Made by a program: the position numbers and the translations under genes
Shown: one piece after another, positions 45,257 to 62,366 of the stretch
How positions within the stretch are numbered: position 1 is the first letter of the stretch
Layout: every line of letters starts with the position of its first letter
The notes under the pieces: generated by a model
What the model was told of the DNA's origin: nothing
The model's database searches: none
The model's input: only the letters and a program-made list of their open reading frames with translations
DNA from: Alphaproteobacteria bacterium US3C007
Lineage (GTDB): Bacteria; Pseudomonadota; Alphaproteobacteria; Rhodobacterales; Rhodobacteraceae
Assembly: GCA_034423775.1 (NCBI GenBank)
Contig: CP139918.1
Span: 1,488,001-1,552,000 of the forward strand
DNA length: 64,000 bases
Reading direction: 5' to 3'

Positions 45257-46594
45257 TCAAAGGGTGAATGTTTCTTTCAGGTCCAAGGCATGCTCCAAAT
45301 TTAGAATGCGAGTATAAAGAGCGTTACGTTTTGCAGGGCTCCAACGGCGGGCGGTTAAGCTATTATATTTTTCTTTTAAAGCGGCCTCAGAATAGGGATC
45401 TCGCCAATCCCCACGGTTGGTTTTTACACTGGCGCGATAGGTGCTTCCATCTTGCATCGTAATGCAAATACTGGCTGGGCGATAATCGGGTAATTGCGCT
45501 GACATATCGGAATTTTCTTTAATTGATATTTTTGCAGCCAGATCCAATATTTTAGTCTTTTCAAGCATGTCTTGGGTAAAGCTCTGAACTTTTGAAGATC
45601 TATTGATTAAACTTGTGGCTACAGCAAAGGGAACAGAAAACCGTGCCGCCAGCATATTGCGCGGTTTAGGATCGGTCAGTTCGGCAGCCAGAAAATAGCT
45701 TTCAACATCGATATGTGCGATATTTTCGGGATTTTGAAGCTCTGAATATTGTTCCATCAAGAGCCAGAGCGCGTCTAAAGCTGCATGATTATAACGACAG
45801 CATGCGTGAAGCTTGAAATAGTTGCGGGTTACCTCAAATCGCGTTCCTAGCGCATCCAAAGCTGCGGCGGTATCAAGGCTGGAAGAAACAATATTGCCAA
45901 AAACAGAGCCGATTCCATCTTTTTCCCCACTGAAACCGGCTTGTAAAATTTGATACGCCAAATGCGCCATTTGATTTGAAATACCAGTGTAAGAATTGCG
46001 AACCGTGCCACCTTCCAGCATGGTTTTTCGGCTGGTCGCCAAGCTGAAGCTTGAGGAAATATTGATCAATTCGATAATTTTTTGTCTATCTAAGCGATTT
46101 AAGACGCCAATCGCGGAAGCAGCGCCGATAACGCCCCAGGTGCCATGCGGGTGCATATGGGGGTTCAGGTTCGTTGCAAGACCGATCCGCGCGGCAATGT
46201 CATATCCAAGGATAAACGACTGAAGAAATTCTTGCCCTGTGACCGGCGCGTCCGCGGTGTCGGAGGCGGCAAGCAATGCTGGGAAAACATGCATACCAGG
46301 ATGCCCTCGTGCAAATTGATGACCTTCATCCATCTCAAGCGCGGTGCCCGCTGTTCCGTTCATCAAGCTTGCCGATTGTGCATCGCTGAAGTTTGAGCCG
46401 CCTAAGATACGCGCGCATCCGTGGCGCATGATTGAGGTTTCCAGGGCTTGATTTTCGGCCTCAGCACTGCCGCCTACAATGGCCGCAATGCAATCGGCTA
46501 TAATCAGTTTTGCCCGTTTTACAGCCGGTTCAGGAATATCATCGAATTTTGTTTGCGTAAGGAAATCAGCAAAAGCGTGCAGGTGATTTGGCAT
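45257..46594 (-). CDS. MmgE/PrpD-family protein
   Basis: A 445-residue member of the MmgE/PrpD superfamily, which includes 2-methylcitrate dehydratase, cis-aconitate decarboxylase and iminodisuccinate epimerase. It has the two-domain plan: an all-helical domain (AKLIIADCIAAIVGG, about residues 29-43; MNGTAGTALEMDEGHQFARG; GYDIAARIG, about 131-139) and a lid domain with HACCRYNHAALDALW (about 265-279). It also has the conserved LEGGTVRNSYTGISNQMAHL region. The precise reaction cannot be assigned. It is divergent from the Liv-type transporter operon with 143 bases between, and probably acts on what that transporter brings in or on a tricarboxylate-like intermediate of the neighbouring operon. 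Confidence 0.85.
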   Translation of the reverse strand: MPNHLHAFADFLTQTKFDDIPEPAVKRAKLIIADCIAAIVGGSAEAENQALETSIMRHGCARILGGSNFSDAQSASLMNGTAGTALEMDEGHQFARGHPGMHVFPALLAASDTADAPVTGQEFLQSFILGYDIAARIGLATNLNPHMHPHGTWGVIGAASAIGVLNRLDRQKIIELINISSSFSLATSRKTMLEGGTVRNSYTGISNQMAHLAYQILQAGFSGEKDGIGSVFGNIVSSSLDTAAALDALGTRFEVTRNYFKLHACCRYNHAALDALWLLMEQYSELQNPENIAHIDVESYFLAAELTDPKPRNMLAARFSVPFAVATSLINRSSKVQSFTQDMLEKTKILDLAAKISIKENSDMSAQLPDYRPASICITMQDGSTYRASVKTNRGDWRDPYSEAALKEKYNSLTARRWSPAKRNALYTRILNLEHALDLKETFTL

Positions 46595-46737
46595 AAGTTT
46601 GTTCCAACTTTACAAATTTGATTATCTGCGTTGCGTGCTATTTTATCATTATTGTTTGGACACAAGAAGAGTTTTACGTGTTTAATCAAAGTATAAGGGC
46701 CAAGTAATGGCTCATGTAAAACCGACAGGAGGGTTTA

Positions 46738-47967
46738 ATGACTAAATCAAAGGATTTATTTACAGGCTCGCGCCGTAAATTTATGAAAGGGGCCTCGGCA
46801 ACATTTGCACTTGCCGCAGCAGGTTTATCAGCTCCACAAATCGCGCGTGCCGCTGGTGCCGTTAAAATTGGCTTGATCCATCCCGCAACGGGCTGGGCTG
46901 CCTATCCGGCCGCACAATTGCGCTATGGTGCGCAAATGGCAATTGCCGATCTCAACGCCGCGGGCGGTATAAAATCTATGGGCGGTGCGGCATTAGAAGT
47001 GGTTTTGGGAGATTCGCAGACAAAACCAGAGATCGGCGCCGCCGAAGTTGAAAAAATGAACGAGGCAGGCGTGCACGCCATTCAAGGCTGTTATCAATCA
47101 GCCGTTGGACTTGCGGCCTCTGCAGCGGCGGCCAAATATAATATACCGTTCTCGGTTGATGTTGGTGTGTCGGATAAATTGGTGCAGCGCGGTCTGAGCA
47201 ATGTCTTTAGAATGGCGGATGGATATGGCCGGATTGCGGCAGATGCATCCGTTAATCTTGCCGAGATTAACAAAGCCGCAGGCTCACCTGCCAAAACGGT
47301 TGCAATCGTGCATGAGGAATCAGAATTTGGTACAGGAACAGCCAAACTGGTGACCAAAGCCCTTGCCAGTCATGGTTTGGAGGTGATTGAAACGATCAAA
47401 CATGCCAATCCAACGCGAAATTTTGATAATATCGCATTGCGGTTAAAATCGGCCAAGCCGGATATCATCATGCCGATCAATTATCCTGGTGAATATATCC
47501 TACTTGCGAAAACCTTGCGTCAACAGCGGGTTGATTTTATGGCCAGCTATTCTGTGCTTGGAGGCGGTTTTAACTTCAAGTTTGTGGATGAAATGCCTCA
47601 AATTGCAGAAAATATGATCGATGTGAACCATTGGTACGATCCGAGCTCGGCATCGGGGCAACAGATGCGTGCGCGCACCGAGGCAGATGGTAAGTATTTC
47701 ACCTTCGAGGTGTATTGCGCTTACATGTCAATCATGTTCCTTGCCGATGGGTTTGAGCGTGCAGGCTCCACCGATAAAGAGGCTGTGAATGCAGCTTTGG
47801 CAAGCTCAACGCTGGATATTGATTTTATGCCCTATGGATCGACCAAAATGGTTGATGGTCAAAATATGGGTTCGCGCGCGGTGGCCATTCAGGCGCAGAA
47901 GGGCGATGTGCAAATCATCGCGCCCTCTGAATACGCGTCCGCCTCTGCGGTTTTCCCGCGTAGTTAA
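46738..47967 (+). CDS. ABC transporter substrate-binding protein, branched-chain amino acid type, Tat-exported
   Basis: A 409-residue LivJ-like binding protein. The N-terminus SRRKFMKGASATFALAAAGL is a twin-arginine signal, cut after ARA. The mature start is AGAVKIGLIHPATGWAAYPA. Two lobes of the type 1 binding fold follow, with SVDVGVSDKLVQRGLSNVFR (about residues 140-159) and PDIIMPINYPGEYILLAKTL. Tat export suggests folding in the cytoplasm, perhaps with a bound cofactor or metal. A GGAGGG site precedes the ATG. It starts the rightward livHMGF-like operon. The ligand is unknown; the genes around suggest a carboxylate, amide or cyclic imide rather than leucine. Confidence 0.88.
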   Translation: MTKSKDLFTGSRRKFMKGASATFALAAAGLSAPQIARAAGAVKIGLIHPATGWAAYPAAQLRYGAQMAIADLNAAGGIKSMGGAALEVVLGDSQTKPEIGAAEVEKMNEAGVHAIQGCYQSAVGLAASAAAAKYNIPFSVDVGVSDKLVQRGLSNVFRMADGYGRIAADASVNLAEINKAAGSPAKTVAIVHEESEFGTGTAKLVTKALASHGLEVIETIKHANPTRNFDNIALRLKSAKPDIIMPINYPGEYILLAKTLRQQRVDFMASYSVLGGGFNFKFVDEMPQIAENMIDVNHWYDPSSASGQQMRARTEADGKYFTFEVYCAYMSIMFLADGFERAGSTDKEAVNAALASSTLDIDFMPYGSTKMVDGQNMGSRAVAIQAQKGDVQIIAPSEYASASAVFPRS

Positions 47968-48050
47968 AAGAGTGGTATGAAATGGGGGCAGCCTTTTGTG
48001 AATTAAAGGCTGCCCCCCCACAACAAACCGTCATCGAGCAAAGAAATTAG

Positions 48051-48929
48051 ATGTTATCAACCAGTCTTTCACTGCTTCCAGCAGGCATCATCAATGGGTT
48101 TATGTTTGGCGCTATTTACGCGCTGGTCGCTTTGGGCTTAACGCTGATTTACGGTGTGCTGCACATTATTAACTTCGCCCATGGTGCGATGTTGATGCTG
48201 GCGCTGTATTCCGCTTATTTTCTGTTTAAAATCTTGAATATCGATCCTTACGTGGCGATCCTTATTGTGACGCCGGCGAGCTTTATTTTTGGCTATGTCA
48301 TTTATCGATGGGGAATCGGGAAGCTTTCCGGCGGCAAAGATCAAAATATCCTGCTGATCACGCTGGGTTTATCGATTATACTTGAAAACGCAGCGTTGTT
48401 TTTCTTCACGGGTGATCAACAAACGATAAGCCTTTCTTACAGTTATGACTCGCTCGATTTAGGGTTCTTGTACTTGTCATATCCCAAGCTGATTTCTTTC
48501 ATTGCCTCGCTTGTGATCTGTGGATTGCTTTGGATGTTGATGACCCTCACAGATTTGGGAAAGGCAATACGCGCTGTTGCGAAACAGCGCGAGGGCGCCC
48601 GATTGGTTGGGATAGATGTCGAGCATGTTTTTGCCGTTACATTCGGCATTGGTATTGCCTGTTTGGGCGCTGCCGGTTGCATGTTGCTGCCAATTTTCTA
48701 CGTAGACCCCTATACCGGAAACGTCTTTGTCATTATCGCTTTTACCATCGTTGTTTTGGGGGGTATGGGCAGTATCGTTGGGGCTTTGCTCGGCGGTTTT
48801 ATTATTGGAATAACCGAATCTGTAGGGGGGCTGCTTCTGGGTGAAAGCCTTGGGCAGATTGGAATTTCTCTTATCTTTATTTTGATCCTAATTTTTAGAC
48901 CGACAGGTATTTTTGGGAGCAAGGCATGA
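48051..48929 (+). CDS. Branched-chain amino acid-type ABC permease, LivH family
   Basis: A 292-residue inner-membrane permease with about eight helices. Family hallmarks are GLTLIYGVLHIINFAHGAML (about residues 29-48), the coupling segment TDLGKAIRAVAKQREGARLV (about 165-184) and GGMGSIVGALLGGFIIGITE near the C-terminus. It begins 83 bases after the binding-protein gene and overlaps the LivM-type gene by four bases (ATGA). It forms half of the heteromeric channel. Confidence 0.88.
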   Translation: MLSTSLSLLPAGIINGFMFGAIYALVALGLTLIYGVLHIINFAHGAMLMLALYSAYFLFKILNIDPYVAILIVTPASFIFGYVIYRWGIGKLSGGKDQNILLITLGLSIILENAALFFFTGDQQTISLSYSYDSLDLGFLYLSYPKLISFIASLVICGLLWMLMTLTDLGKAIRAVAKQREGARLVGIDVEHVFAVTFGIGIACLGAAGCMLLPIFYVDPYTGNVFVIIAFTIVVLGGMGSIVGALLGGFIIGITESVGGLLLGESLGQIGISLIFILILIFRPTGIFGSKA

Positions 48930-49894
48930 GTTTTAACGCCAAAAATACGTTGCTGTTCGGGTTGCTTCTGCTGGCAGCGGCGCTTGCGCCAGTTGGCATC
49001 TCGAGCAAATTTTACCTCGATGTTCTGACGCTGATTTTCTTTACCGCCTATATCGGGCAGTCTTGGAATATTTTAGGGGGGTATGCAGGTCAGTTTTCTT
49101 TTGGTGGTGTCATGTTCTTTGGAACCGGGGCGTATACATCTTCCATTCTTCTGGTCACGTTTGGTATTCCGCCGCTTATTGGTATTTTTGTGGCGGTTTT
49201 AATGGGGGCATTTTTAGGGTTTCTGGTCGGATATTTAAGTTTCCGATCAGGCCTGCGCGGCTCGTATTTTGCGTTGATCACGCTGGCTTTCGCCGAGCTT
49301 TTGCGCGTTTTGGCAAATTCGGTTGAATTTACGGGCGGAGGTGTTGGGCTTTTCCTCACCTATGCGCCCGGGTTGATGAATTTGCAATTTGTGTCTCCCA
49401 CGGGGTTTTACTATTTCTCGCTTTTCTTATTGGTGATTTCTTTGGCAATTGCCCTGTGGTTGGAACGGTCACGTTTTGGCGCGCAGCTTATTGCGATCCG
49501 GGAGAATGAAGAGGCCGCGGAAGCTTTGGGCATTGATACGCTTAAATGCAAGCTCTATGCGATTATGATTATGGGGGGTATGGGCGGCGCCGCGGGAACA
49601 TTTTATGCCCAGAAATATTTATATCTTGACCCGCCAATTTCCTATTCTATCGCCTTATCGGTTGAAATGTTACTTGTAAGCATCGTGGGGGGGCTGGGCA
49701 CGGTGTTTGGCCCGCTTATCGGATCAGTTGTGTTGCATGTTGTGAACGAAGTTGCCCGGCATTTTATTGACACCCCGGGTTTGAGTCTGATCGTTTACGG
49801 TGTGATTTTGATTTTTATCATCTCGTATCTTCCAAACGGCTTGGTAGGGCTTTTTCGCAGAAGCCGCGGCAAAAAGGAGGATGGTGGTGCTTGA
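48926..49894 (+). CDS. Branched-chain amino acid-type ABC permease, LivM family
   Basis: A 322-residue inner-membrane permease. Typical LivM sequence includes SWNILGGYAGQFSFGGVMFF (about residues 45-64), RGSYFALITLAFAELLRVLA and ENEEAAEALGIDTLKCKLYA (about 193-212), the coupling region. It ends with a basic tail. It overlaps LivH by four bases and the first ATPase gene by up to 14 bases, so the whole operon is translationally packed. Confidence 0.88.
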   Translation: MSFNAKNTLLFGLLLLAAALAPVGISSKFYLDVLTLIFFTAYIGQSWNILGGYAGQFSFGGVMFFGTGAYTSSILLVTFGIPPLIGIFVAVLMGAFLGFLVGYLSFRSGLRGSYFALITLAFAELLRVLANSVEFTGGGVGLFLTYAPGLMNLQFVSPTGFYYFSLFLLVISLAIALWLERSRFGAQLIAIRENEEAAEALGIDTLKCKLYAIMIMGGMGGAAGTFYAQKYLYLDPPISYSIALSVEMLLVSIVGGLGTVFGPLIGSVVLHVVNEVARHFIDTPGLSLIVYGVILIFIISYLPNGLVGLFRRSRGKKEDGGA

Positions 49895-50627
49895 GGTAAA
49901 GCAACTTACAAAACGCTTCGGTGGTTTGATCGCCGTTTCCGAGGTAGATTTATCGGTGGTTGAAGGTGAGATCGTATCTTTGATTGGGCCCAATGGTGCA
50001 GGCAAAACCACATTATTCGCCAGTATTGCAGGTTTCTTGAAGCCCGATGGCGGTGACGTGCAGCTGAATGGGCGGTCGATTTTAAATCTGAAACCGCATA
50101 AAATCTGCCAGAGAGGCATGGTGCGAACGTTTCAAATTACCCAGCCATTCGCGGCGTTGAATACGCTTGAGAATATTATGGTTGGGGCCTATTCTCGAAC
50201 CGGTGATAAAGCCTTAGCGCAACGTGAGGCGGAACGCGTGGCTGACATTGTTGGCATGGCCTCGCAACTGCATCAAAAAGCAGATGGTTTGACCGTTGCG
50301 GCCCGCAAACGCCTGGAACTGGCGCGGGCTTTAGCCACCAAACCAAAGCTGCTTCTGCTTGATGAGGTTATGGCGGGCCTTAATCCGACGGAGATAGACG
50401 AAATTGTCGACGTCATTAAGGGTATTCGCGATACAGGCGTGACGATTTTTTTAATCGAGCATGTGATGAAAGCGGTCGTGAACTTATCGGATAGAACATA
50501 TGTTTTGAATGATGGAAAACTGATTGCGCAGGGCACGCCAGAATCGGTGGCATCGAACCCAACCGTTATTGAGGCCTATCTGGGCCATGGGGCGGCCGCG
50601 GCGATGGCTGGCGAGGGTGCAGCATGA
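49881..50627 (+). CDS. Branched-chain amino acid-type ABC ATPase, LivG family
   Basis: A 248-residue ATPase. Walker A is GPNGAGKTTLF (about residues 35-45), the Q-loop region is VRTFQITQPFAALNTLENIM, and Walker B is LLLLDEVMAGLNPTE. The signature is weak (DGLTVAARKRLELARALA), a known feature of LivG-type proteins. The H-loop is LIEHVM. The annotated ATG (49881) abuts the AGGAGG, so the better-spaced GTG at 49887 (MLEVKQL) may be the true start. It overlaps the LivM end and the LivF start by four bases. Confidence 0.87.
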   Translation: MVVLEVKQLTKRFGGLIAVSEVDLSVVEGEIVSLIGPNGAGKTTLFASIAGFLKPDGGDVQLNGRSILNLKPHKICQRGMVRTFQITQPFAALNTLENIMVGAYSRTGDKALAQREAERVADIVGMASQLHQKADGLTVAARKRLELARALATKPKLLLLDEVMAGLNPTEIDEIVDVIKGIRDTGVTIFLIEHVMKAVVNLSDRTYVLNDGKLIAQGTPESVASNPTVIEAYLGHGAAAAMAGEGAA

Positions 50628-51325
50628 TCAGGATTGAAGGTTTAAACGCAGGCTACGGCCCGCTGCAGGTGTTGCGCGATATCACGCTTGATGTGGGTGA
50701 GGGGGAAATTGTCGCGGTTCTAGGCAGCAATGGTGTTGGAAAAACCACTCTGAACAACACACTTTCGGGCTTGATCAAACCAAGCTCTGGTTCGATCTAT
50801 TTCGATGATGTTTTAATCTCGGGGCGCGACCCGGTTGAGATCGTTGATATGGGCCTGATACATGTCCCCGAGGGGCGCAAGTTATTTCCCAACCTATCCG
50901 TAAAAGAAAACCTCGAATTAGGCAGTTATCGCCGGGGCAAGCCCAATCGGGCCAGCAATCTTGAGCGGGTTCTGGGTGTTTTCCCTAAACTCAAAGAGCG
51001 CCTATTCCAAACCGCGGGTACGCTTTCGGGGGGCGAACAGCAGATGGTTGCCATAGCGCGCGGTCTGATGGGAGAGCCGCGCGTGCTGCTATTGGATGAG
51101 CCATCTTTGGGCCTTTCTCCTTTATTGGTGGAGCAGATGTTCACATTGATAAAACAGATCAATGAAAGCGGTCTCGCCGTGATATTGGTGGAGCAGAATG
51201 TCATTCAATCGCTTGCGATTGCAAATCGGGCTTATGTGATTGCAGAGGGTACGGTCGCTATGTCCGGCCCTGCTGCTGACTTACGCGAAAACAGTGATTT
51301 GAAAAGGTCATATTTGGGCTTGTAA
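50624..51325 (+). CDS. Branched-chain amino acid-type ABC ATPase, LivF family
   Basis: A 233-residue ATPase. Walker A is GSNGVGKTTLNN (about residues 36-47), the signature is LSGGEQQMVAIARGLM (about 134-149), Walker B is VLLLDEPSLGLSPL, and the H-loop is LVEQNV (His replaced by Gln, normal for LivF). With the LivG-type protein it powers the importer. It is the last gene of this operon, one base from the convergent SDR gene. Confidence 0.88.
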   Translation: MIRIEGLNAGYGPLQVLRDITLDVGEGEIVAVLGSNGVGKTTLNNTLSGLIKPSSGSIYFDDVLISGRDPVEIVDMGLIHVPEGRKLFPNLSVKENLELGSYRRGKPNRASNLERVLGVFPKLKERLFQTAGTLSGGEQQMVAIARGLMGEPRVLLLDEPSLGLSPLLVEQMFTLIKQINESGLAVILVEQNVIQSLAIANRAYVIAEGTVAMSGPAADLRENSDLKRSYLGL

Positions 51326-51326
51326 G

Positions 51327-52067
51327 TCATTGCGCGGTGAACCCGCCATCTGCCACAATCACCTGACCGGTTATGAAAGAGGCCGCGTCGGAAAGTAAAA
51401 ATGCCGCCAGGTTGGCGATTTCTTCGGCGCGTCCAAAACGGCCCAAAGGTATTGCTTGCGTCAAGGCTTCGAAGCGGGATTTGTTGGCGCGCGTCGCGGC
51501 TGTCATATCGGTTGCGATTGGGCCCGGTGCAATGGCATTTACGCGTATGTTATCTGGCGCAAGCTCAAGCGCCATCGCTCGGGCCAAACCATTAATTGCA
51601 GATTTTGAGGCGGCATATGCCGCTGCATTTTTATGCCCGACGAGGCCAATTTGACTTGAGATCATAACAATAGCGCTTGCTTTATTTTGGCGCAAATAGG
51701 GAATAGCGCATTTGGCAAGCTGAAAGCTCGCATTCAAATTCACATCCAGAATGCGGGCCCAATCTGGCGGGCTGGTCTCTTCGCTGCGCAGCAGTTTAAT
51801 CATACCAGCTGAAGATAAAATCCCGTCTAGGCCCTGGGATGCCTCTGCGGCTTGCCGTATCGCGCTGTGCAATGCGTTTTGATCGGTGACGTCCAGCTCA
51901 AAGCAGTGATCAGCAGAGACTATCGGCGCAACTGCGTCACGTTGTGCCTTGTTGAAAACAGTCCCTGAAACATGCGCGCCAAGGCTTTTGGCAAGGCGCG
52001 CGCTGGCAAGGCCGATGCCACTTCCCATCCCGGTTATAAACAGACGTCTATTGACAAGCGATATCAT
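51327..52067 (-). CDS. Short-chain dehydrogenase/reductase
   Basis: A 246-residue classical SDR. The cofactor motif is FITGMGSGIGLASARLAKSLG (TGxxxGIG, about residues 11-31). The LDVTDQNALHSAI and DGILSSAGMI segments follow. The catalytic triad is SSQIGLVGHKNAAAYAASKS, with the Tyr-x3-Lys motif. The C-terminal IAPGPIATDM and ADGG segments are standard. It oxidises a secondary alcohol or reduces a ketone; the substrate is unknown. I place the start at 52067 (MISLVNRRL); the frame runs further up. It is divergent from the racemase-family gene with a 57-base gap. Confidence 0.86.
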   Translation of the reverse strand: MISLVNRRLFITGMGSGIGLASARLAKSLGAHVSGTVFNKAQRDAVAPIVSADHCFELDVTDQNALHSAIRQAAEASQGLDGILSSAGMIKLLRSEETSPPDWARILDVNLNASFQLAKCAIPYLRQNKASAIVMISSQIGLVGHKNAAAYAASKSAINGLARAMALELAPDNIRVNAIAPGPIATDMTAATRANKSRFEALTQAIPLGRFGRAEEIANLAAFLLSDAASFITGQVIVADGGFTAQ

Positions 52068-52124: not shown

Positions 52125-52889
52125 ATGAAGCAAATTTTGGTGATTGTTCCGTTTCCAATGTCAAAAGACAATTTGGCCCTGCGTAAACAACAGCTCGAAG
52201 CGGTTCAAATGTCTGAGCAAATGGCATTTACATTCAAAGCGGTGAAAGCTGCGCCTAAAAACTATATTTCAGAGGCTGATATGGTGCTTGCGGATGTGGC
52301 AATTCTGGAAGCTGGTCAAAGCGCTGTAGAGGATGGGTTTGATGCCGTTTGCGTGGATACGATGAGCGATTCCGGAGTGGCTGCGTTACGCTCGATTTTA
52401 TCGATCCCGGTTGTCGGGCCCGGACGGGCTTCCATGTTAACCGCCCTGATGTTGGGGCGGCGGTTTTCAATTCTGACAATGTGGAAAAAATGGGATCATC
52501 TTTACCAAAAAACGGCAAAAGACTTGGGTCTTCAGACGCAAATGGCCTCGATAAGATCGATCGACGTGGCTCCGGACAATCAAGCCTTATTAGAAGGTAA
52601 AGAAGAAGAGATTTTTTCAAAATTATTGTCTGCTGCGCAGCAAGCGATCGATCAAGACGGCGCTGATGTTATTTTGCTGGGGTCAACCACAATGCATCAA
52701 GCCCATGCGTATCTTGCTGATGCGTTAGATATCCCGGTGATCAATCCCGGCCCATTGACTTATAAACTGGTGGAAACCTTGCTGGGTTTGGGGCTTATGC
52801 AAAGCGCGCGCGCCTATCCAACATCGCCAGCACCGCGCGATGCTATGGTGCAGGCAATGATGGACGCTGCCGGTGAATTTAATCACTAA
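52125..52889 (+). CDS. Asp/Glu racemase-superfamily protein (hydantoin racemase / maleate isomerase-like), single-cysteine
   Basis: A 254-residue Asp/Glu/hydantoin racemase-fold protein. The first catalytic-cysteine region is DAVCVDTMSDSGV (about residues 74-86), so the first Cys is present. The second region reads ILLGSTTMHQ, with Ser where two-base racemases have Cys (LGCxGM). Family members include racemases, maleate isomerase and arylmalonate decarboxylase; the last also works with one Cys, although it keeps the second. The start at 52125 (MKQILVIVP) matches the family; the frame is open further upstream. It overlaps the end of the convergent NTF2-like gene by four bases. Confidence 0.82.
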   Translation: MKQILVIVPFPMSKDNLALRKQQLEAVQMSEQMAFTFKAVKAAPKNYISEADMVLADVAILEAGQSAVEDGFDAVCVDTMSDSGVAALRSILSIPVVGPGRASMLTALMLGRRFSILTMWKKWDHLYQKTAKDLGLQTQMASIRSIDVAPDNQALLEGKEEEIFSKLLSAAQQAIDQDGADVILLGSTTMHQAHAYLADALDIPVINPGPLTYKLVETLLGLGLMQSARAYPTSPAPRDAMVQAMMDAAGEFNH

Positions 52890-53278
52890 TCCGCATCAGC
52901 ATGGTTCAGCGTGTTTTCGCCGGCCATATAAACGCGCACAGTGTGAAACTTTTCATCCTTAAGCGTGAAAAAGTTGCAGTTGGATTTATAGACCAGCTGA
53001 CCCGTTTTTAGCATATTGGTGACTCTGAACCGGGTGGCAATTTCGGCATTCGTTGCATTTTCTACAAATGAAAACTGGTCATGGCGCACCCATTCATGCT
53101 TGGACCATAGCCGCTGGAACATTCCGCTAATCTCTTGATGCCCTTTTAGCACGATTCCATGCGTTTCGACCGAAAATAGACAGTCTTGGCATAATGTTGT
53201 TAATATAAGGGCCAAATCTTCTTGGTCGACACCACGAAAATAGTCCAACACGCGTTTCTGAAGAATTGTCTCGGCCAT
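52886..53278 (-). CDS. NTF2-like (SnoaL-type) protein
   Basis: A 130-residue protein with the NTF2-like pattern: an N-terminal helix (ETILQKRVLDYFRGVDQEDL), strand LCQDCLFSVETHGIVLKG, helix HQEISGMFQRLWSKH and then long strands (WVRHDQFSFVENATNAEIAT, FFTLKDEKFHTVRVYM). Members cyclise or isomerise ketones or bind small acids. It sits 13 bases downstream of the tautomerase-NTF2 fusion gene, probably in one transcript, so the two may act on the same molecule. Confidence 0.75.
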   Translation of the reverse strand: MAETILQKRVLDYFRGVDQEDLALILTTLCQDCLFSVETHGIVLKGHQEISGMFQRLWSKHEWVRHDQFSFVENATNAEIATRFRVTNMLKTGQLVYKSNCNFFTLKDEKFHTVRVYMAGENTLNHADAD

Positions 53279-55248: not shown

Positions 55249-55755
55249 ATGGCGCGCTTGTGGCGGTTTGACACAACGATTGATACGGATGTTTTGGCGC
55301 CGGGCTTTTATATGAAAAAGCCCTTGGAAGAGCTGGCGCGCCATTGCCTTGAGGCGGTGCGGCCTGAATTTGCCGCTTCTGTACGGCCTGGCGATGTGAT
55401 GTTGGCCAATGCCAATATGGGGGTTGGATCTTCGCGTGAACAAGCCGCTGAAGTTTTGAAATATTTGGGGATAGCTGCGGTTATTGCCCCCAGTTTTGCG
55501 GGTATTTTTTATCGAAATGCGATTAATTTGGGATTGCCTGTCTTGGTAATAGATGCAGCGCTTATGGGTTTGCCAGAATTGGTTGATGGAGCAGATGTGG
55601 ATTTTGACTTTCACGCGGCTACATTGAGCCTAGAAGGGCGAGGCGCGAATATTCCGCTGAACCCTTTACCAGACTTTTTGAAACGCCTCATTTTGGATGG
55701 TGGTCTGGTGCCACATCTGGAGAAGCGGTTTCAACGTGAGGAGAGCGGCCAATGA
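55249..55755 (+). CDS. Aconitase-superfamily hydratase, small subunit (LeuD-like)
   Basis: A 168-residue swivel-domain subunit. It contains the family motif NMGVGSSREQAAEVLKYLGI (about residues 58-77), where LeuD-type proteins have GSSREHA and this one has Gln for His. The IAPSFAGIFYRNAINLGLPV segment (about 81-100) is also conserved. It follows the large subunit directly (one base after its stop) and overlaps the lyase gene by four bases (ATGA). The heterodimer forms the complete hydratase. Confidence 0.87.
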   Translation: MARLWRFDTTIDTDVLAPGFYMKKPLEELARHCLEAVRPEFAASVRPGDVMLANANMGVGSSREQAAEVLKYLGIAAVIAPSFAGIFYRNAINLGLPVLVIDAALMGLPELVDGADVDFDFHAATLSLEGRGANIPLNPLPDFLKRLILDGGLVPHLEKRFQREESGQ

Positions 55756-56621
55756 GTTTGCGCGACGCGCTTGAAAAAGACGGTCTGATCATTGCGCCAG
55801 GTGTGTATGATGCTTTGTCGGGTTTGATCGCAAGCCAGTCGGGCGCTCAGGCTCTTTATTTATCGGGGGCCAGCCTAGCATATACGCGATTTGGAACCTC
55901 TGATATTGGCCTGATCAGCGTTTCTGAAGTGAATGACACGATCGCCGCAATCACCGATCGCATAAATATTCCGATAATTGTCGACGCAGATACAGGTTTT
56001 GGCAATGCGTTGAACGTTCAGCGCACGGTGCGTAGTTTTGAGCGTTCAGGCGCGCATGCGATTCAACTTGAAGATCAGTCTTTTCCAAAGAAATGTGGCC
56101 ATTTGGATGGGAAAAAACTGGTCTCAACGCAAGAGATGGTTGGGAAAATTCAGGCTGCGCTTGACGCCCGTGCCAGTGAGGAGACGTTGATCATTGCACG
56201 CACGGATGCGCGCGCGGTTGAGGGGTTTGCCCAAGCGATTGAGCGCGCCTGGGCCTATAAAGAGGCGGGGGCCGATATCTTATTTGTCGAAGCCCCCCAA
56301 TCGCTTCAAGAAATGCAGCATATATGCGCAGAATTTTCAGCTCAGATCCCCCTTTTGGCCAATATGGTCGAAGGTGGTAAAACACCGATTTCTTCCGCCA
56401 GTGAACTGGCAAAGCTCGGTTATAAAATAGCCATATTTCCTGGCGGGGCTGTGCGCGCGATTGCGCATCATTTGCAGGCCTATTACACTGGCTTGCTGAC
56501 CCATGGAAATAATCAGAAATTTTCAGATAAAATGCACGACTTTAACGGTCTGAACGATTTACTCGGCACCAAAGACCTGATTGAGCTCGGGCGCAAATAC
56601 GAAGATCAAGGGAATATTTGA
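55752..56621 (+). CDS. Isocitrate lyase/PEP mutase-family C-C lyase (2-methylisocitrate or dimethylmalate lyase-like)
   Basis: A 289-residue TIM-barrel lyase. Metal-binding DADTGFGNALNVQRTV is at about residues 77-92. The catalytic loop QSFPKKCGHLDGKKLV (about 110-125) has the KKCGH motif found in the true lyases (isocitrate, 2-methylisocitrate, 2,3-dimethylmalate) but not in mutases or oxaloacetate decarboxylases. IARTDARAVEGFAQAI and AGADILFVEAP are conserved. It should split a 2-hydroxy-diacid or -triacid into pyruvate or glyoxylate plus a carboxylate. It follows the hydratase subunits in one operon, so it probably uses their product. Confidence 0.88.
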   Translation: MSLRDALEKDGLIIAPGVYDALSGLIASQSGAQALYLSGASLAYTRFGTSDIGLISVSEVNDTIAAITDRINIPIIVDADTGFGNALNVQRTVRSFERSGAHAIQLEDQSFPKKCGHLDGKKLVSTQEMVGKIQAALDARASEETLIIARTDARAVEGFAQAIERAWAYKEAGADILFVEAPQSLQEMQHICAEFSAQIPLLANMVEGGKTPISSASELAKLGYKIAIFPGGAVRAIAHHLQAYYTGLLTHGNNQKFSDKMHDFNGLNDLLGTKDLIELGRKYEDQGNI

Positions 56622-56628
56622 ACATATT

Positions 56629-58302
56629 ATGACGGATATGAGTTTAGACCCGGTCACCCTTGCGATTTTGAAGGGCAGGCTTGAGCAAATCGCCGATGAG
56701 ATGGATGCCACTTTGTTTCGATCTGCGTTTAACCCGATTATCGCTGAAGCGCATGATGCCAGCCATGGCATCTACGATGCGATCACCGGTGAAACCTTGG
56801 TACAAGGCAAGTCTGGGCTACCGATTTTTGTTGGAGTGATGGCTTTTGCGGTCAAGGCGGTGATCGAAAAAGTTGCGCGCGATGGTAATTTAAGCGATGG
56901 GGATGTGTTCATCTTCAACGATCCTTATGAGGGGGGGACGCATCTGTCTGATTTTCGACTGGTCAAGCCGATCTATCGAAATGGAACCGTCTTTTGTTAT
57001 TTGGCTTCGGTTGGGCATTGGCATGATGTGGGCGGCAATGTTCCTGGAAATTACAATCCAGAAGCCACGGAATCTTTTCAAGAAGGCATGTTGATTCCCC
57101 CAGTAAAACTTTTTTCAGCCGGAGTTTTGAACACAGATATTGTGGATATTCTTTCCTCCAATTCGCGCTTGCCAAATTCACTTTATGGAGATCTTAACGG
57201 CCAAATCAATGCGCTTGATTTAGGCCATCAACGGTTGAACGACCTGCTTGATCAATATGGCGAAACCGATATACAAACCGCGCTGGGCCTTCTTAAATCG
57301 CGTGCAAATCGTATGATGCGCGACCATTTGCAGGCTTTGCCAAATGGTACGATCTCTGTCGAAGACTTTCTTGACAATGATGGCGTGCATGATGTGGCGC
57401 TTAAACTGGCGGTTGATCTGAGCATTGATGGCGAACGCCTCACGGTGGATTTCAGCCGTTCGAGCCAGGCCTGTGCAGGGCCAGTGAATATTTCCCGATC
57501 AACAACGATTGCCGCAACCTATGTAGCATTGAAACACATCTTTACCGATGTGCCGGCGAATGCGGGCGTTTTACAGCCCGTCGAGTTTATCATACCCGAA
57601 GATAGTTTTTTAAGCGTGAAAGCGCCAAAGCCTGTTGGGGGCTACACGGAAACCATCCTACGCCTCATTGATGTGTTGTTTTGTGCTTTCGAGCATATTG
57701 CGCCCGAGCGGGTGAATGGCTGCGCCTATGGAACCATCAATGCCTTGTCTATGGCGGGGCATCGCTCAAACGGCGCGCGTTGGGTGATGTTTTCGTTTTT
57801 TGGCGGTGGCCATGGTGGGCACCCAGAAGGAGATGGGCTGAACCATGGTAATGCGCCCATTTCAACCGCAACGATCCCGCCATTGGAAATCCTTGAAGCG
57901 GCCTATCCCGTGGCCTTCACGCAATGGGCGCTTCGTCCGGATTCGGGCGGCGTTGGGAAGCATCGTGGCGGGTTGGGAGCCATCTATGAAATTGAGTTGC
58001 TGGAAGAAAGTGCCACGGTGTTTTTGTTTGGCGAGCGTGGTAAATTCCCGCCTCCTGGAGTCGTTGGAGGAGGCGCTGGGGCGATGAATAAATTTGCTTA
58101 CCAAAGCGCTGATGAAGAGACTGCTTTTCCCGATAAAACGCCGCCTTTGGCCTCAAAAATCACGGGCGTGAAACTGCGCAGAGGTCAACGGGTTCGTTTG
58201 GAAACTCCGGGTGGAGGTGGCTATGGTAACGCGCAAGAGCGCCCTGAAGAGCTGATACGCAATGATCTTGCGCAAGGTTACGTTTCTGGAAAAAAATCAT
58301 GA
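56629..58302 (+). CDS. Hydantoinase B / oxoprolinase-family subunit
   Basis: A 557-residue HyuB-type subunit of ATP-dependent hydantoinase/5-oxoprolinase. It starts SLDPVTLAILKGRLEQIADE and contains FNDPYEGGTHLSDFRLVKPI (about residues 91-110), the GHWHDVGG metal-site segment, ACAGPVNISRSTTIAATY and the C-terminal KLRRGQRVRLETPGGGGYGN. With HyuA it opens a five-membered cyclic amide or imide using ATP. ATG 56629 is chosen by homology; the next ATG (56638) and an upstream TTG are possible. It lies 7 bases after the lyase gene and overlaps HyuA by four bases. Confidence 0.87.
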   Translation: MTDMSLDPVTLAILKGRLEQIADEMDATLFRSAFNPIIAEAHDASHGIYDAITGETLVQGKSGLPIFVGVMAFAVKAVIEKVARDGNLSDGDVFIFNDPYEGGTHLSDFRLVKPIYRNGTVFCYLASVGHWHDVGGNVPGNYNPEATESFQEGMLIPPVKLFSAGVLNTDIVDILSSNSRLPNSLYGDLNGQINALDLGHQRLNDLLDQYGETDIQTALGLLKSRANRMMRDHLQALPNGTISVEDFLDNDGVHDVALKLAVDLSIDGERLTVDFSRSSQACAGPVNISRSTTIAATYVALKHIFTDVPANAGVLQPVEFIIPEDSFLSVKAPKPVGGYTETILRLIDVLFCAFEHIAPERVNGCAYGTINALSMAGHRSNGARWVMFSFFGGGHGGHPEGDGLNHGNAPISTATIPPLEILEAAYPVAFTQWALRPDSGGVGKHRGGLGAIYEIELLEESATVFLFGERGKFPPPGVVGGGAGAMNKFAYQSADEETAFPDKTPPLASKITGVKLRRGQRVRLETPGGGGYGNAQERPEELIRNDLAQGYVSGKKS

Positions 58303-60353
58303 GTAAATCAATCGTTATTGGTGTCGATGTTGGCGGCACATTCACCGACACGTTGGCGCTTGATGAGGCGACTGGCGCCGTCAGAGTTGAAAAGGTTCCC
58401 TCTACCAAGGGCGATCAATCCAACGGATTTCTAAGCGGTATTCTGGCGGCAACCGATCATGATCTCAGTTCTGTATCCACGATCATTCACGGAACCACGG
58501 TTGCAACCAACGCTTTGTTAGAGCGCAAGGGGGCAAAGGCCGGCATCATAACCACCGAAGGGTTTCGCGACGTTCTGGAAATGCGGCGGCGCGATCGCCC
58601 TTCAACCTGGGGGCTTTGGGGGCAATTTACGCCGGTCATTGAACGCAAATGCCGTCTGGAAGTGCCCGAACGTACCTTGGCGAATGGTACGGTTGTGAAA
58701 GATGTGGATGAAGCTTCAATTAAAGCGGCGGCGCAGGATTTGATTGCTCAAGGTTGTGACTCTGTCTGTCTGTTTTTTATCAATGGCTATGCAAATACGG
58801 ATAATGAAACCAAAGCTGCACGGATTTTGCGGCAGGTTTGGCCCAATGATTATGTCAGTGTGGCGACAGAAATCCTTCCTGAAATTCGCGAATTTGAACG
58901 TTGCTCTACGGCGAGTTTGAACGCCTATCTGCAGCCGGTTGTTGCCAATTATCTGGCGCGTTTGGAAACCCGCATTGCAGAGGATGACGCTGGCTCTGAA
59001 ATATTAATCGTTCAGTCTAATGGCGGGATTATGTCGGTTGATACAGCCAAAGCGCTTCCGGTGCGCACGGCGCTGTCGGGCCCTGCTGCAGGTGTTGTGG
59101 CGGCGCGACAAATTGCCAAGGCTGCTGGTTTTGAAAATGTGATTACCTGCGATATGGGGGGTACGTCATTTGATGTATCGCTGGTGGCCGATGGCCAAAA
59201 CATGCTGACATCTCAAGCCAGTATTGATTTTGGAATGGTTATCCGAACCCCGATGATTGAAATGTCAACGATTGGGGCAGGGGGCGGCTCAATCGCGCAT
59301 ATCGATGAAACAGGCCTGCTTGAAATAGGAACCGATAGCGCGGGCTCTGATCCCGGTCCGGCGTGCTATGGCTTGGGAAATGAACGACCCACCGTTACAG
59401 ATGCAAATTTGGTTTTGGGCCGCATTGATGCGCGCAAACCGATCGGCAACAAGCTCGAGGCTTTGGATCGTGACGCCGCCGTGGCCGCGATAAAAACGCA
59501 TATCGCTGACCCATTGGGGATGGATGTCGAAGAAACCGCAGAAGCGCTTATTAAAGTGGCCAATTCCAAAATGGCGGGCGCGATACGGCTGATTTCGATT
59601 GAGCGCGGTCATGATCCGAAAATATTTGCTGCCATGCCTTTCGGGGGCGGCGGGGCGCTTCATGCAGGGGCCCTTATGCAAGATATCGGTTTAGCAGCGG
59701 CGGTTATTCCCCGCTACCCGGGCGTAAACTCGGCCTTGGGTTGCGTGATGTCTGACCTGCGCCATGATGAAGTGCGCACGTTAAATACGATGCTGGATGG
59801 CCTTAATTGCAAGGAGATAAGTGGGCTGATCCAGGCGATGACGCAGATGGGGCATTCGATCATCAAAAAATCAAAAGCGCAGTTGGTGGCAACAGAAAGC
59901 GTGATCGAATTGGATATGCTCTATATGGGGCAAACCCACGCTGTTGCGGTGCCAATCCCCAGCGATAAACCCATAAGCCCGGACCTTATCCGAGCCGCGT
60001 TTGAGGCAACCTATCTCAAAACCTATAGCCGATTGTTGGATCAAATCCCAATTCGAATTTTAAACCTGCGCCTGTCGGTGATTGGGAAGCGTCCGCAGAT
60101 TGATATTAAAATGCTGGCACGCGGAAAACGTGCTGAAAGCGTTGCAGCCTGTTACTTGGCAGATCAAAAGATATTTGCAAATGGTGCCTGGCATGACGCG
60201 GGTATTTACGACCGCCTTTTATTGCCTCAGGGCAGCAAAATTTTAGGCCCCGCGCTGTTGGTGCAGCCAGATGCAACGATTTACGTCGACCCTGGTCTGA
60301 GTGCAGAGGTTGATGATTTTGGTAATATTATTATGAAATCAGAGGAGGATTAA
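58299..60353 (+). CDS. Hydantoinase A / oxoprolinase-family subunit
   Basis: A 684-residue HyuA-type subunit with an ASKHA-like ATPase fold. The N-terminal phosphate motif is GVDVGGTFTDTLALDEATG (about residues 8-26). IHGTTVATNALLERKGAKAG, ALSGPAAGVVAARQIAKAAG and ITCDMGGTSFDVSLV (the second phosphate motif, about 278-292) follow, then FGGGGALHAGALMQDIG. It is the ATP-using partner of HyuB. The pair also resembles acetone carboxylase and N-methylhydantoinase subunits, so the substrate could be any related lactam, imide or ketone. The overlap with HyuB and direct adjacency to the next gene show one operon. Confidence 0.88.
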   Translation: MSKSIVIGVDVGGTFTDTLALDEATGAVRVEKVPSTKGDQSNGFLSGILAATDHDLSSVSTIIHGTTVATNALLERKGAKAGIITTEGFRDVLEMRRRDRPSTWGLWGQFTPVIERKCRLEVPERTLANGTVVKDVDEASIKAAAQDLIAQGCDSVCLFFINGYANTDNETKAARILRQVWPNDYVSVATEILPEIREFERCSTASLNAYLQPVVANYLARLETRIAEDDAGSEILIVQSNGGIMSVDTAKALPVRTALSGPAAGVVAARQIAKAAGFENVITCDMGGTSFDVSLVADGQNMLTSQASIDFGMVIRTPMIEMSTIGAGGGSIAHIDETGLLEIGTDSAGSDPGPACYGLGNERPTVTDANLVLGRIDARKPIGNKLEALDRDAAVAAIKTHIADPLGMDVEETAEALIKVANSKMAGAIRLISIERGHDPKIFAAMPFGGGGALHAGALMQDIGLAAAVIPRYPGVNSALGCVMSDLRHDEVRTLNTMLDGLNCKEISGLIQAMTQMGHSIIKKSKAQLVATESVIELDMLYMGQTHAVAVPIPSDKPISPDLIRAAFEATYLKTYSRLLDQIPIRILNLRLSVIGKRPQIDIKMLARGKRAESVAACYLADQKIFANGAWHDAGIYDRLLLPQGSKILGPALLVQPDATIYVDPGLSAEVDDFGNIIMKSEED

Positions 60354-60965
60354 ATGTCTCAACATGAATTTATTCCCTCGCAAACGGCAGTGCTTATCGT
60401 CGATTTGCAGAACGATTTTTTGCACCCTGAAGGGGCTTATGGGCGCTCTGGAACCTCTAGTTCGGCGATTGCAGCTTTGCCCGAAAAGATTGGCCCTTTG
60501 CTCGATGTTGTACGAAGCGCTGGCGGTTGGATCGTTTCCACGCAGTTTACTTTGGTGCCCGGAAAACAAGGCGCGCCTTTTATCTCGACGCATCTGAAAA
60601 AATTAAGGCCGTTTCTCACGCGGGGTGATTTCAAGCCCGGTGGGTGGGGGCATAGTTTGGTCGATGAGCTTCAGCCTGCGGATATCACGATCGAAAAGGT
60701 AGCCTATTCGGCGTTTTATCAATCGCGCTTGGAGTTTGCGCTTAATCGCGCGGGGATCACAACCTTAATGGTTTGTGGAATTGTTACCAATGGCGGCGTC
60801 GCATCAACAGTGCGAGAGGCGCATGTGCGTGATTTCCACACCATCACATTAGAGGATGGGTGTGCCGCCTTTAGTGCCGAAACCCATGATATCTCGATCG
60901 CATCACTCGCCACGGTTGGGGATGTGATCTCTATACGGGATGCCATAAATTTATTTGAAGGATGA
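60354..60965 (+). CDS. Isochorismatase-fold hydrolase lacking the nucleophilic cysteine
   Basis: A 203-residue protein of the isochorismatase/cysteine-hydrolase superfamily. The catalytic Asp (LIVDLQNDFLHPEG, about residues 15-28) and Lys (IEKVAYSAFYQSRLEFAL, about 104-121) are present. The Cys motif (usually TNxCVxxTxxxA) reads VTNGGVASTVREA, with Gly at the nucleophile position. Nicotinamidase and N-carbamoylsarcosine amidase need that Cys; true isochorismatases (EntB, PhzD) lack it. So it may not be an amidase. It is separated from HyuA only by the start codon (GAGGAGGATTAAATG), and from the FAD enzyme by 6 bases. Confidence 0.85.
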   Translation: MSQHEFIPSQTAVLIVDLQNDFLHPEGAYGRSGTSSSAIAALPEKIGPLLDVVRSAGGWIVSTQFTLVPGKQGAPFISTHLKKLRPFLTRGDFKPGGWGHSLVDELQPADITIEKVAYSAFYQSRLEFALNRAGITTLMVCGIVTNGGVASTVREAHVRDFHTITLEDGCAAFSAETHDISIASLATVGDVISIRDAINLFEG

Positions 60966-60971
60966 AAACCA

Positions 60972-62366
60972 GTGTCCGGCATTATCAGAAGAAACGCGTT
61001 TCCATCTGATATAGATGTTGATTGCCTTGTCATTGGCGGCGGCGCCGCGGGCCTGACGGCGGCTCTTGCCGCGCAGGAGGCGGGCGCGACGGTTCTGATC
61101 GCCGAGCGTGAAACGCGCCTGTCGGGTTCAACCGCGCTGTCATCTGGGCTAATTCCCGCAGCCGGGACCCGTGCCCAGCAGGCGCAACAGATCGATGACA
61201 GCGAAGATATTTTCTGTAGTGATATTTTGAACAAAAACCATCACAGCGCGGATCCAATTTATGTCCAACAAATCGTTCAGCAAATTTCTAAAACGATTGA
61301 TTGGCTCTCTGGCAGCTATAATATACCTTTCCATGTTTTGGATAACTTTCTTTATCCGGGGCATAGCAATCATCGGATGCATGCGGTGCCTGAAACCACT
61401 GGGATTGGGCTTGTAAACCGGCTTGAAGCTGCCGTTACCGCTAAAGATATTTTGGTTGTAACTGATGCTCTCATCACGGATCTTATTGTGGATCAAAATG
61501 ATATGGCGTTGGGCGCTATATGCCAACGGCCCAATAAGGATGTTGAACATATCGCGGCGTCATCTGTGATTTTGGCCTGTAACGGGTATGGCGGCAATCC
61601 AGATTTGATTGCAGAGCATATTCCTGAGATGAAAGATGCATTGTATTTTGGCCATCCCGGAAATCAGGGGGAAGCGATCATTTGGGGTGCAGCTTTGGGG
61701 GCTGAGCTTGCGCATCTGTCAGGGTATCAGGGCCATGGATCGGTTGCACATCCGCATGGCATTTTGGTGACATGGGCTTTGATGATGGAAGGTGGAATTC
61801 AAATCAATAAGAATGGCCTGCGCTTTTCAAATGAACATCAAGGCTATTCCGAGCAAGCAGTATCGGTAATTGGGCAACCTGATCAAGTTGCATTTAACAT
61901 ATTTGACCAGCGGCTTTTGGAGTTGGGGCGGGGCTTTGATGATTTTGTAAAGGCTGAAGAAAATGGCGCGGTTTTGCGCGCCGAGAGCTGCGATGCGCTT
62001 GCAAAAATGCTGGCAATAGACCGCGTGGCGTTGGAGCATACATTGAAAGAATGCCAAAGCTATGCGTCACAAGAAATTCCTGATCCCTTCGGGCGTCGTT
62101 TTAAACCCGAAAAAATGCTTAAGCCGCCCTATTACGCGGTTAAAGTGACTGGAGCGCTTTTTCACACGCAAGGCGGGTTGAAGGTGAATGCGCGCGCTCA
62201 GATTCAAAAGCCAAATGGTATAGCGTTTGAAAATATCTTTGCCTGCGGCGGAGCTGCCTGTGGCGTGTCAGGCCCGGATGTATCGGGCTATTTGTCGGGC
62301 AATGGATTGTTAACCGCGTTGAGCCTTGGTGAGATTGCAGGGCGCTTTGCAGGAGGGCGTGTTTAA
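60972..62366 (+). CDS. FAD-dependent dehydrogenase, fumarate reductase/ketosteroid dehydrogenase family
   Basis: A 464-residue flavoprotein. The FAD motif is DCLVIGGGAAGLTAALAAQE (about residues 18-37), with AERETRLSGSTALSSGLIPA next. The C-terminal FAD-contact segment is ENIFACGGAACGVSGPDVSG (about 415-434), followed by GYLSGNGLLTALSLGEIAG. The family oxidises or reduces alpha,beta carbon-carbon bonds next to carbonyls (fumarate/succinate, 3-ketosteroids). Here it may introduce or remove a C=C in the ring or in the diacid. It starts at GTG 60972 with AAGGATG upstream. It is the last gene of the operon by spacing. Confidence 0.85.
   Translation: MSGIIRRNAFPSDIDVDCLVIGGGAAGLTAALAAQEAGATVLIAERETRLSGSTALSSGLIPAAGTRAQQAQQIDDSEDIFCSDILNKNHHSADPIYVQQIVQQISKTIDWLSGSYNIPFHVLDNFLYPGHSNHRMHAVPETTGIGLVNRLEAAVTAKDILVVTDALITDLIVDQNDMALGAICQRPNKDVEHIAASSVILACNGYGGNPDLIAEHIPEMKDALYFGHPGNQGEAIIWGAALGAELAHLSGYQGHGSVAHPHGILVTWALMMEGGIQINKNGLRFSNEHQGYSEQAVSVIGQPDQVAFNIFDQRLLELGRGFDDFVKAEENGAVLRAESCDALAKMLAIDRVALEHTLKECQSYASQEIPDPFGRRFKPEKMLKPPYYAVKVTGALFHTQGGLKVNARAQIQKPNGIAFENIFACGGAACGVSGPDVSGYLSGNGLLTALSLGEIAGRFAGGRV

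Follow-up and report, generated by a model that had tools for sequence, protein, structure and literature searches.

The window analysed here, a stretch of 64,000 nucleotides from the single-contig, 3.62-Mb genome of Alphaproteobacteria bacterium US3C007 (G000:C1:1488001-1552000), carries an island of genes that, read from its sequence, is on balance probably a catabolic module in which a cyclic amide or imide would be opened, a maleate-type acid hydrated and a malate-type acid cleaved. At its core lies an operon of seven plus-strand genes (53977-62366; coordinates are window positions, and families were assigned by Pfam and NCBIfam scans of the window genes). These encode HydL and HydS, the large and small subunits of an aconitase-superfamily hydratase (53977-55248 and 55249-55755); an isocitrate-lyase-superfamily C-C lyase (55752-56621; Pfam PEP_mutase); HyuB and HyuA, the metal and ATP subunits of an ATP-dependent cyclic amidase (56629-58302, Pfam PF02538, and 58299-60353, Pfam PF01968, PF05378 and PF19278); an isochorismatase-fold protein (60354-60965; Pfam PF00857); and a FAD dehydrogenase of the flavocytochrome c/fumarate reductase/TcuA superfamily (60972-62366; Pfam FAD_binding_2). 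Genes for a Liv importer, an MmgE/PrpD family protein, an SDR oxidoreductase and a racemase-fold protein lie beside it. The operon is as tight as the initial annotation of this DNA had described: the HydL and HydS genes abut, as do those for HyuA and the isochorismatase-fold protein; HydS overlaps the lyase gene, and HyuB overlaps HyuA, by 4 bases; and no gap exceeds 7 bases, with 7 between lyase and HyuB, given a HyuB start at ATG 56629, and 6 ahead of the FAD gene. Starts were corrected for HyuB (to about 56629), the racemase-fold gene (52125) and the SDR gene (52067, minus strand).

The strongest evidence for a chain running from ring to diacid to cleavage comes from sister clusters, in which both the opener and the hydratase are replaced around a nearly constant lyase. 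Exchange for unrelated or distant proteins is what would be expected if the reaction, rather than any particular protein, is under selection, and opening of a cyclic amide or imide is the best reading because the proteins that replace HyuAB are non-homologous openers.

Recurrence and linkage of the cluster

Among 61 genomes comprising the window's own and its relatives (a set distinct from the 61 flanked loci described below), 40 have a lyase match at E ≤ 0.001, and 20 stretches of up to 20 kb were taken. The whole block is syntenic in both same-genus genomes searched (L023, L024), and seven further loci keep HyuB, HyuA, the isochorismatase-fold protein, which lacks its family's catalytic cysteine (see below), and the lyase. 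Two of the seven have the window hydratase type (L025, L029); the other five (L026, L027, L028, L030, L031) have a second type, HydL2, and a tautomerase-SnoaL fusion gene immediately ahead of HyuB. Hydratase and lyase occur without HyuAB in L033, L034 and L035, and the lyase alone in L032. Around seven lyases of 35-46% identity, used as controls, six loci (L036, L037, L038, L040, L041, L042) contain no HyuAB, PuuE or allantoinase-like gene; an aconitase-type gene is present in two of them. The remaining locus, L039, carries PuuE-like genes and was counted as a member.

A scan of a named genome collection with an alignment of 12 lyases matched at least 593 stretches, of which 553 were confirmed and the best 80 loci taken, mostly from alpha- and betaproteobacteria by title. 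Many of the 80 end at contig ends; HyuA or HyuB is present in 56, the Cys-less protein in 53 and the hydratase in 64. In 61 of these loci the lyase is flanked by 5 kb or more on each side; we call these 61 the sister loci. They contain the hydratase large subunit (53 loci), HyuAB (47), the Cys-less protein (47), the FAD protein (50), Liv genes (37), TRAP genes (6), a GntR regulator (28), the tautomerase fusion (16), MmgE (10) and the racemase fold (7). HyuAB and the Cys-less protein occupy the same 47 loci, neither ever occurring alone within the 61. A ring opener of some type is present in 54, and the hydratase accompanies it in 52 of those 54, as against 1 of the 7 without an opener (Fisher p 3.4e-6, for loci that are related by descent and not independent). 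Lyase similarity was the criterion by which the loci were picked; co-occurrence of opener and hydratase played no part in it.

A class-wide survey of 385 genomes started from the Cys-less protein instead. Members of its subfamily, none below 54% identity, occupy 27 places distributed over 26 genomes; every one of the 26 also has a lyase at E ≤ 1e-40, and 24 have one of at least 54% identity. By hand count, such a lyase lies on the same contig within about 7 kb at 20 of the 27 places, and a hydratase large subunit within about 13 kb at 19. Lyase matches also occur on 90 plasmid records, including those of Azospirillum and Sulfitobacter, and we verified the cluster on two plasmids, of Sulfitobacter sp. 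SK012 (L128) and Azospirillum oryzae (L129). The genes could in principle be chance neighbours, namely a misplaced LeuCD, a methylisocitrate lyase and a stray hydantoinase; each family is common alone, and the parts are split in some genomes. Recurrence in alpha- and betaproteobacterial loci and on the plasmids of two genera, together with the 24 of 26 genomes that pair the Cys-less protein with the lyase, makes this extremely improbable.

The initial annotation had asked whether the set recurs as a unit without leucine or nicotinate genes. It does recur as a unit in both proteobacterial classes; no leucine or nicotinate genes were seen among the window genes scanned, and the genome has LeuC-type genes of its own apart from the island. 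Linkage in relatives, a second point raised there, holds for the whole block in the two congeners and gives way in the genomes where parts are split.

Ring opener, hydratase and lyase

The phosphate-2 (DxGGTSFD) and adenosine (GxxPGP) motifs of HyuA are kept in 69 of 69 aligned rows, the phosphate-1 motif is present in all rows covering that region (64 to 67 of 69), and the HyuB metal tetrad Asp-His-Asp-His (D52, H114, D117, H139) is invariant in 69 of 69; motifs and tetrad are as defined in PMC8453981. The nearest PDB entries to HyuA are N-methylhydantoinase 7hk5 and 5-oxoprolinase 6yra. With CapAB, N-methylhydantoinase and 5-oxoprolinase, HyuAB has in common a two-subunit, ATP-dependent opener with intact motifs; it differs from CapAB in its neighbours and in equivalog scores that are about half the cut-off or less (501 and 296 bits; cut-offs, 1000 each). 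Caprolactam use was set aside on NCBIfam scores and linkage. HyuA and HyuB also belong to the same families as acetone and acetophenone carboxylases, and if they formed an ATP-dependent carboxylase the cluster would build something, not open it. Scores favour the lactam/hydantoin side, both in PDB (N-methylhydantoinase, 390 bits; carboxylases, at most 268) and in NCBIfam (CapA 501 vs ApcC 273; CapB 296 vs ApcD 106), and HyuAB is replaced by hydrolytic openers; we regard carboxylation as highly unlikely and set it aside on scores and linkage. The genome has a second HyuB, 32% identical to that of the island, and the 17-kb stretch around it contains no lyase or hydratase of the island kinds.

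Three non-homologous types fill the opener position: HyuAB, PuuE-like proteins and an allantoinase/dihydropyrimidinase-like amidohydrolase. PuuE-like openers occur in 5 of the 61 sister loci and in L034, L035 and L039. Two such polysaccharide-deacetylase-fold proteins are present where HyuAB is missing in L034, L035, L039, L065, L084 (a stretch that starts inside the PuuE gene, with its far side out of view), L097 and L122, and in 6 of these 7 loci they are accompanied by a Cys-containing isochorismatase-fold protein; L091 has HyuAB and two PuuE-like genes together. The amidohydrolase takes that position in three sister loci (L072, L073, L114), and its best NCBIfam match, AllB, falls below cut-off (224 bits vs 358).

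These relationships bear on the nature of the ring. Were it a hydantoin or other cyclic ureide, it would be opened to an N-carbamoyl acid; in the PuuE versions the Cys-type isochorismatase would free an amino diacid, and deamination would give a substituted fumarate or maleate for HydLS and the lyase. Several parts have hydantoin- or allantoin-type kin (7hk5, PuuE allantoinase, the AllB-like protein, the allantoin racemase fold), and the Cys-type isochorismatase resembles N-carbamoylsarcosine amidohydrolase (in L039, 117 bits to 26st, and 113 bits to maleamate amidase 4l07). A hydantoin would, however, yield an amino acid and not a C4 diacid, unless its side chain bears a second carboxylate, and the Cys-less protein would be unable to hydrolyse a carbamoyl group by the usual mechanism. 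No ammonia-lyase is present among the window genes scanned, the sister loci not having been annotated gene by gene. On this evidence a ureide ring seems unlikely.

HydL scored over the NCBIfam hacA_fam cut-off and well under those of the LeuC equivalogs (LEU2, 354 against 611; leuC, 249 against 560). HydS is over the cut-off of the LeuD/DmdB family TIGR02087, the only subfamily model it matched, and well short of the leuD equivalog (47 against 116 bits); the comparison with DmdAB was made through this family model. A hydratase tree, built by a quicker method from 52 rows (16 of 48 HydL rows, all 33 HydL2 hits and three LeuC-type proteins) with E. coli LeuC as outgroup, has two sides. The window HydL is on one; HydL2, which is common in sister clusters, is on the other, beside E. 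coli LeuC and the genome's own LeuC-type proteins. The other aconitase-superfamily genes of the genome are one within a 914-aa open frame and two of LeuC type, so leucine synthesis need not depend on the island hydratase; a role for the latter in that pathway was rejected on equivalog scores and linkage. In the two plasmid records (L128, L129) the cluster hydratase is annotated leuC/leuD. The HydS specificity loop is mostly Y-M-K, and since its last place varies (H, S, A, Q), it cannot separate di- from tricarboxylate substrates. L146 (the G000:C1:1885220 region) holds a second LeuC/LeuD-type pair, whose large subunit shares about 50% identity with the HydL2 type.

The KKCGH loop reported in the initial annotation is present in the window lyase and its two congeners; among 100 sister lyases, with these three left out, the corresponding loop reads PKRCGH in 99 and PKKCGH in 1. 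A second loop, NMVEGGKTP, matches NMxEGGKTP of petal death protein (1zlp) and not NITEFGATP of the PrpB entries, and the pattern N[MIV][VI]EGG is found in 96 of the 100 sister lyases, with 4 non-matching. Both 1zlp loops, PKxCGH and NMxEGGxTP, are thus present. PDB scores are 242 bits for 1zlp and 220 for 3fa3, an entry named 2,3-dimethylmalate lyase; no named dimethylmalate lyase is among the best 120 matches of a protein search, all of at least 72% identity. The PrpB equivalog score is 300 bits against a cut-off of 354, and a role in the methylisocitrate cycle was rejected on that score and linkage. In a tree of 116 lyases with E. coli PrpB as outgroup, the 103 lyases of at least 50% identity split from 13 others, E. 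coli PrpB included, with support of 100/97. Five locus labels (HyuAB, PuuE, allantoinase-like, other and low identity, loci cut by contig ends counting as other) require 23 changes on this tree vs 41 in shuffles; the PuuE label changes 5 times and the allantoinase-like label 3 times, at least two of each by well-supported branches. The lyase of L110, on a contig filed under Singulisphaera (Planctomycetota), is nested in Comamonadaceae, probably through a binning error. On whether hydratase and lyase cluster with families of known, unrelated roles, a point raised in the initial annotation, the answer is mixed: the lyase has its own clade and the window hydratase sits outside the LeuC side of its tree, but many sister hydratases lie on that side.

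Proteins without catalytic cysteines and neighbouring genes

In the isochorismatase-fold protein, D17 and K115 are present in 73 of 73 rows, while the Cys site, fixed by alignment, is Gly in 72 rows and Ala in the remaining one; the rows include 14 of the 27 class-survey places. The missing nucleophile described in the initial annotation is therefore confirmed, with no Cys in any row: the protein has a D-K-G triad in place of the D-K-C triad of isochorismatase-fold cysteine hydrolases, and is probably not an amidase, to judge from its residues. Two plasmid records nevertheless name it cysteine hydrolase or isochorismatase family cysteine hydrolase. Of 8,000 candidates scored, at least 7,983 match it at E ≤ 1e-30, some from Tara ocean data, as counted by similarity alone and not by the residue at the Cys site. 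PMC5353710 gives the PhzD triad as D38-K122-G155 and describes YecD (D26-K112-G145) as lacking lactamase activity. We do not claim kinship to PhzD, because the scaffold is closer to BiuH/RutB. The signature might also point to another substrate, a lactam with an enamide bond such as a pyrrolinone, which HyuAB would open and from which the D-K-G protein would protonate and hydrolyse the released enamine, much as PhzD and EntB act on vinyl ethers. The near-invariance of D-K-G, its presence in PhzD and in the lactamase-negative YecD, and the strict pairing of the protein with HyuAB in the sister loci all fit; a lactam would not yield a C4 diacid as directly as a five-membered imide, and we consider it distinctly improbable.

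The racemase-fold protein (52125-52889, plus strand) matches hydantoin/allantoin racemase in fold, and in none of its 15 rows does a Cys occupy either of the catalytic positions. A Cys three residues ahead of the first catalytic position is present in 14 of 15, and the motifs DTxSDxG and GSTTMH are common to 13.

Domain scans confirmed the families proposed for the other neighbours. The MmgE/PrpD family protein (45257-46594, minus strand) is over cut-off for Pfam PF03972 and PF19305. The Liv importer is encoded on the plus strand by genes for a solute-binding protein (46738-47967; Peripla_BP_6), LivH-like and LivM-like permeases (48051-48929 and 48926-49894; both BPD_transp_2), and LivG-like and LivF-like ATPases (49881-50627, ABC_tran and BCA_ABC_TP_C; 50624-51325, ABC_tran). 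PDB searches were made with two receptors: for the Liv receptor no ligand of use emerged, and the TRAP receptor of L031 is nearest to 4mnc/4mni, whose probable benzoylformate ligand was given no weight. The SDR oxidoreductase (51327-52067, minus strand; adh_short_C2) has its ATG at 52067, as placed from the sequence. Of two NTF2-fold proteins claimed earlier, one stands as a fusion of a 4-oxalocrotonate-tautomerase-like domain to a SnoaL-like domain (53292-53855, minus strand; Tautomerase and SnoaL_2 over cut-off), and the other (52886-53278, minus strand) only reaches 22 bits against the SnoaL_2 cut-off of 27. The tautomerase domain has an N-terminal Pro. Downstream of the operon, 62559-63251 encodes a metal-dependent hydrolase (NCBIfam PRK00685, over cut-off), found at the same place in two same-genus genomes. 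The FAD protein falls below the NCBIfam flavo_cyto_c and TcuA cut-offs (TcuA equivalog, 161 bits vs 369). Families recurring in at least 6 fetched loci include TctC/Bug-type receptors (22 loci, by eye) and six smaller groups, one CaiB-like by eye. In L116, an OYE-family, NamA-like gene (1902-2945) lies between hydratase and regulator; none of its matches, which extend to models for N-ethylmaleimide reductase and bilirubin reductase, reaches cut-off.

Proposed pathway and related systems

In the route we propose, the substrate would be a small cyclic amide, with a five-membered imide (a substituted succinimide or maleimide) as the likeliest kind; the Liv importer would bring it into the cell, and HyuAB would open the ring at the expense of ATP. 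With the nitrogen lost, the product would be a substituted succinate or maleate, and where it is the succinate form the TcuA-like FAD protein could desaturate it, so that the route could take succinimides. HydLS would then hydrate the maleate-type acid to a 2-alkylmalate-type acid, which the lyase would split into a 2-oxo acid and a carboxylate, both passing into central metabolism. The sequence of steps, the kind of substrate and what the FAD, isochorismatase-fold, racemase-fold, MmgE and tautomerase proteins would do are our inferences; the general pathway itself we judge the likelier account. As a substrate class a five-membered imide appears best, and is preferred over a hydantoin or lactam because it would yield a C4 diacid directly. 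The intact HyuAB motifs, the petal-death-type loop of the lyase and the matches of the L039 Cys-type isochorismatase to maleamate amidase and N-carbamoylsarcosine amidohydrolase also speak for the route. The chain of import, ring opening, hydration and cleavage put forward in the initial annotation is partly supported, by recurrence and by replacement of the opener.

Several observations weigh against this pathway. The HyuAB versions have no obvious half-amide amidase, a classical one being absent because the isochorismatase-fold protein lacks Cys. Since dialkylmaleamic acids hydrolyse spontaneously, a half-amide of that kind might call for no enzyme. The racemase-fold, PuuE and allantoinase kinships would suit a hydantoin-type ring too, and the lyase is overall as near to PrpB by PDB score (1o5q, 248 bits; 1mum, 242) as to petal death protein. 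The alignment used to gather loci came from clusters already seen. Seven of the 61 sister loci have the lyase without any scored opener. One of them, L085, also lacks the hydratase and has a hydantoinase-like gene of 27% identity and a protein that by eye resembles the maleate-isomerase type (L085:5306-6613 and 10806-11582). In L083, L094 and L110 no opener is recognisable, and its position is taken by an SDR and a gene that looks AtuA-like by eye and has no NCBIfam match, for which the proposed route offers no step. Conversely, L082, L091, L140 and L142 have HyuAB without a hydratase in the stretch covered, L134 has HyuAB and the isochorismatase-fold protein with only a 37% lyase, and no HyuAB lies in the 20 and 15 kb covered around the Cys-less proteins (52-53% identity) of L135 and L136. 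L039 combines Liv, PuuE, hydratase, FAD, two racemase-fold and MmgE genes with a 46% lyase outside the common clade, so that the lyase is nearly, not wholly, constant. In three genomes of one genus (G198, G069, G296) the lyase is on another contig than the Cys-less protein; in G069 and G296 the isochorismatase-fold protein and the hydratase are both apart from it, and in G198 HyuAB, the Cys-less protein and HydL2 share a contig, with the lyase on a second contig beside Liv, MmgE, FAD and racemase-fold genes (L130, L131). G323 is also split, the second G267 copy and G351 have no lyase nearby, and G390 has only a 37% lyase.

Parts of the proposed route have counterparts in known systems. The nicotinate fermentation of Eubacterium barkeri ends with dimethylmaleate hydratase and 2,3-dimethylmalate lyase. 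The island has in common with it a two-subunit aconitase-type hydratase followed by an isocitrate-lyase-superfamily lyase, presumably with the same passage from a maleate-type to a malate-type acid and on to a 2-oxo acid and a carboxylate. Unlike that tail, it has a HyuAB, PuuE-like or allantoinase-like opener, a Liv or TRAP importer and a TcuA-like FAD protein; the nicotinate-pathway enamidase, cobalamin mutase and other upstream genes are absent from the window genes scanned, the rest of the genome not having been searched. The lower half of the methylcitrate cycle (PrpD/AcnD, PrpB) likewise couples hydration to isocitrate-lyase-type cleavage, and an MmgE/PrpD gene lies near the island, but the lyase has a PrpB score below cut-off and another loop motif, and no citrate-synthase-type gene is among the island genes scanned. 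In tricarballylate use, TcuA feeds aconitase and isocitrate lyase; FAD-dependent desaturation of a substituted succinate to a cis-alkene, aconitase-type hydration and isocitrate-lyase-type cleavage are all in common, whereas the TcuA score of the island protein is low and the nitrogen ring opener is extra. Microbial degradation of cyclic imides uses an imidase and then a half-amidase, a classical route that supplies succinate or fumarate without substituents and is not known to require a hydratase plus C-C lyase; opening of an imide, followed by a diacid, is what it has in common with the island. Titles on an imide-hydrolysing D-hydantoinase and a dihydropyrimidinase-like imidase appear in the reference list of PMC9863593.

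The cluster might serve as a bacterial route for maleimide or pyrrolinone fragments of chlorophyll, haem and bilins. Methylethylmaleimide or hematinic acid would then be imported and opened by HyuAB, PuuE-like or allantoinase-like enzymes, the dialkylmaleate hydrated and cleaved to a 2-oxo acid and propionate or a homologue, and the D-K-G isochorismatase-fold and Cys-less racemase-fold proteins would perform new, non-amidase chemistry on such rings. PMC7318184 cites the occurrence of both maleimides and hematinic acid in senescent leaves and in sediments of lakes; in its own data hematinic acid was found and maleimides were not detectable. No tetrapyrrole-specific gene was identified in the loci, which were not annotated gene by gene, and nothing in the sequences is specific to such compounds; this substrate is therefore a guess, and a rather improbable one.

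The cluster is built from known enzyme families. We found no description of it in the open-licence papers searched, where both the combination and its two altered protein groups appear undescribed. One unit, plasmid-borne in some bacteria, joins cyclic amide opening, aconitase-type hydration and isocitrate-lyase-type cleavage, and occurs in marine, soil and freshwater proteobacteria, while two annotated records place its hydratase under leucine biosynthesis. Within it are two conserved protein groups defined by loss of their families' catalytic cysteines. If the substrate is a natural imide, the cluster would serve as a genetic marker that a neglected pool of nitrogen, tetrapyrrole fragments perhaps among it, is being turned over.

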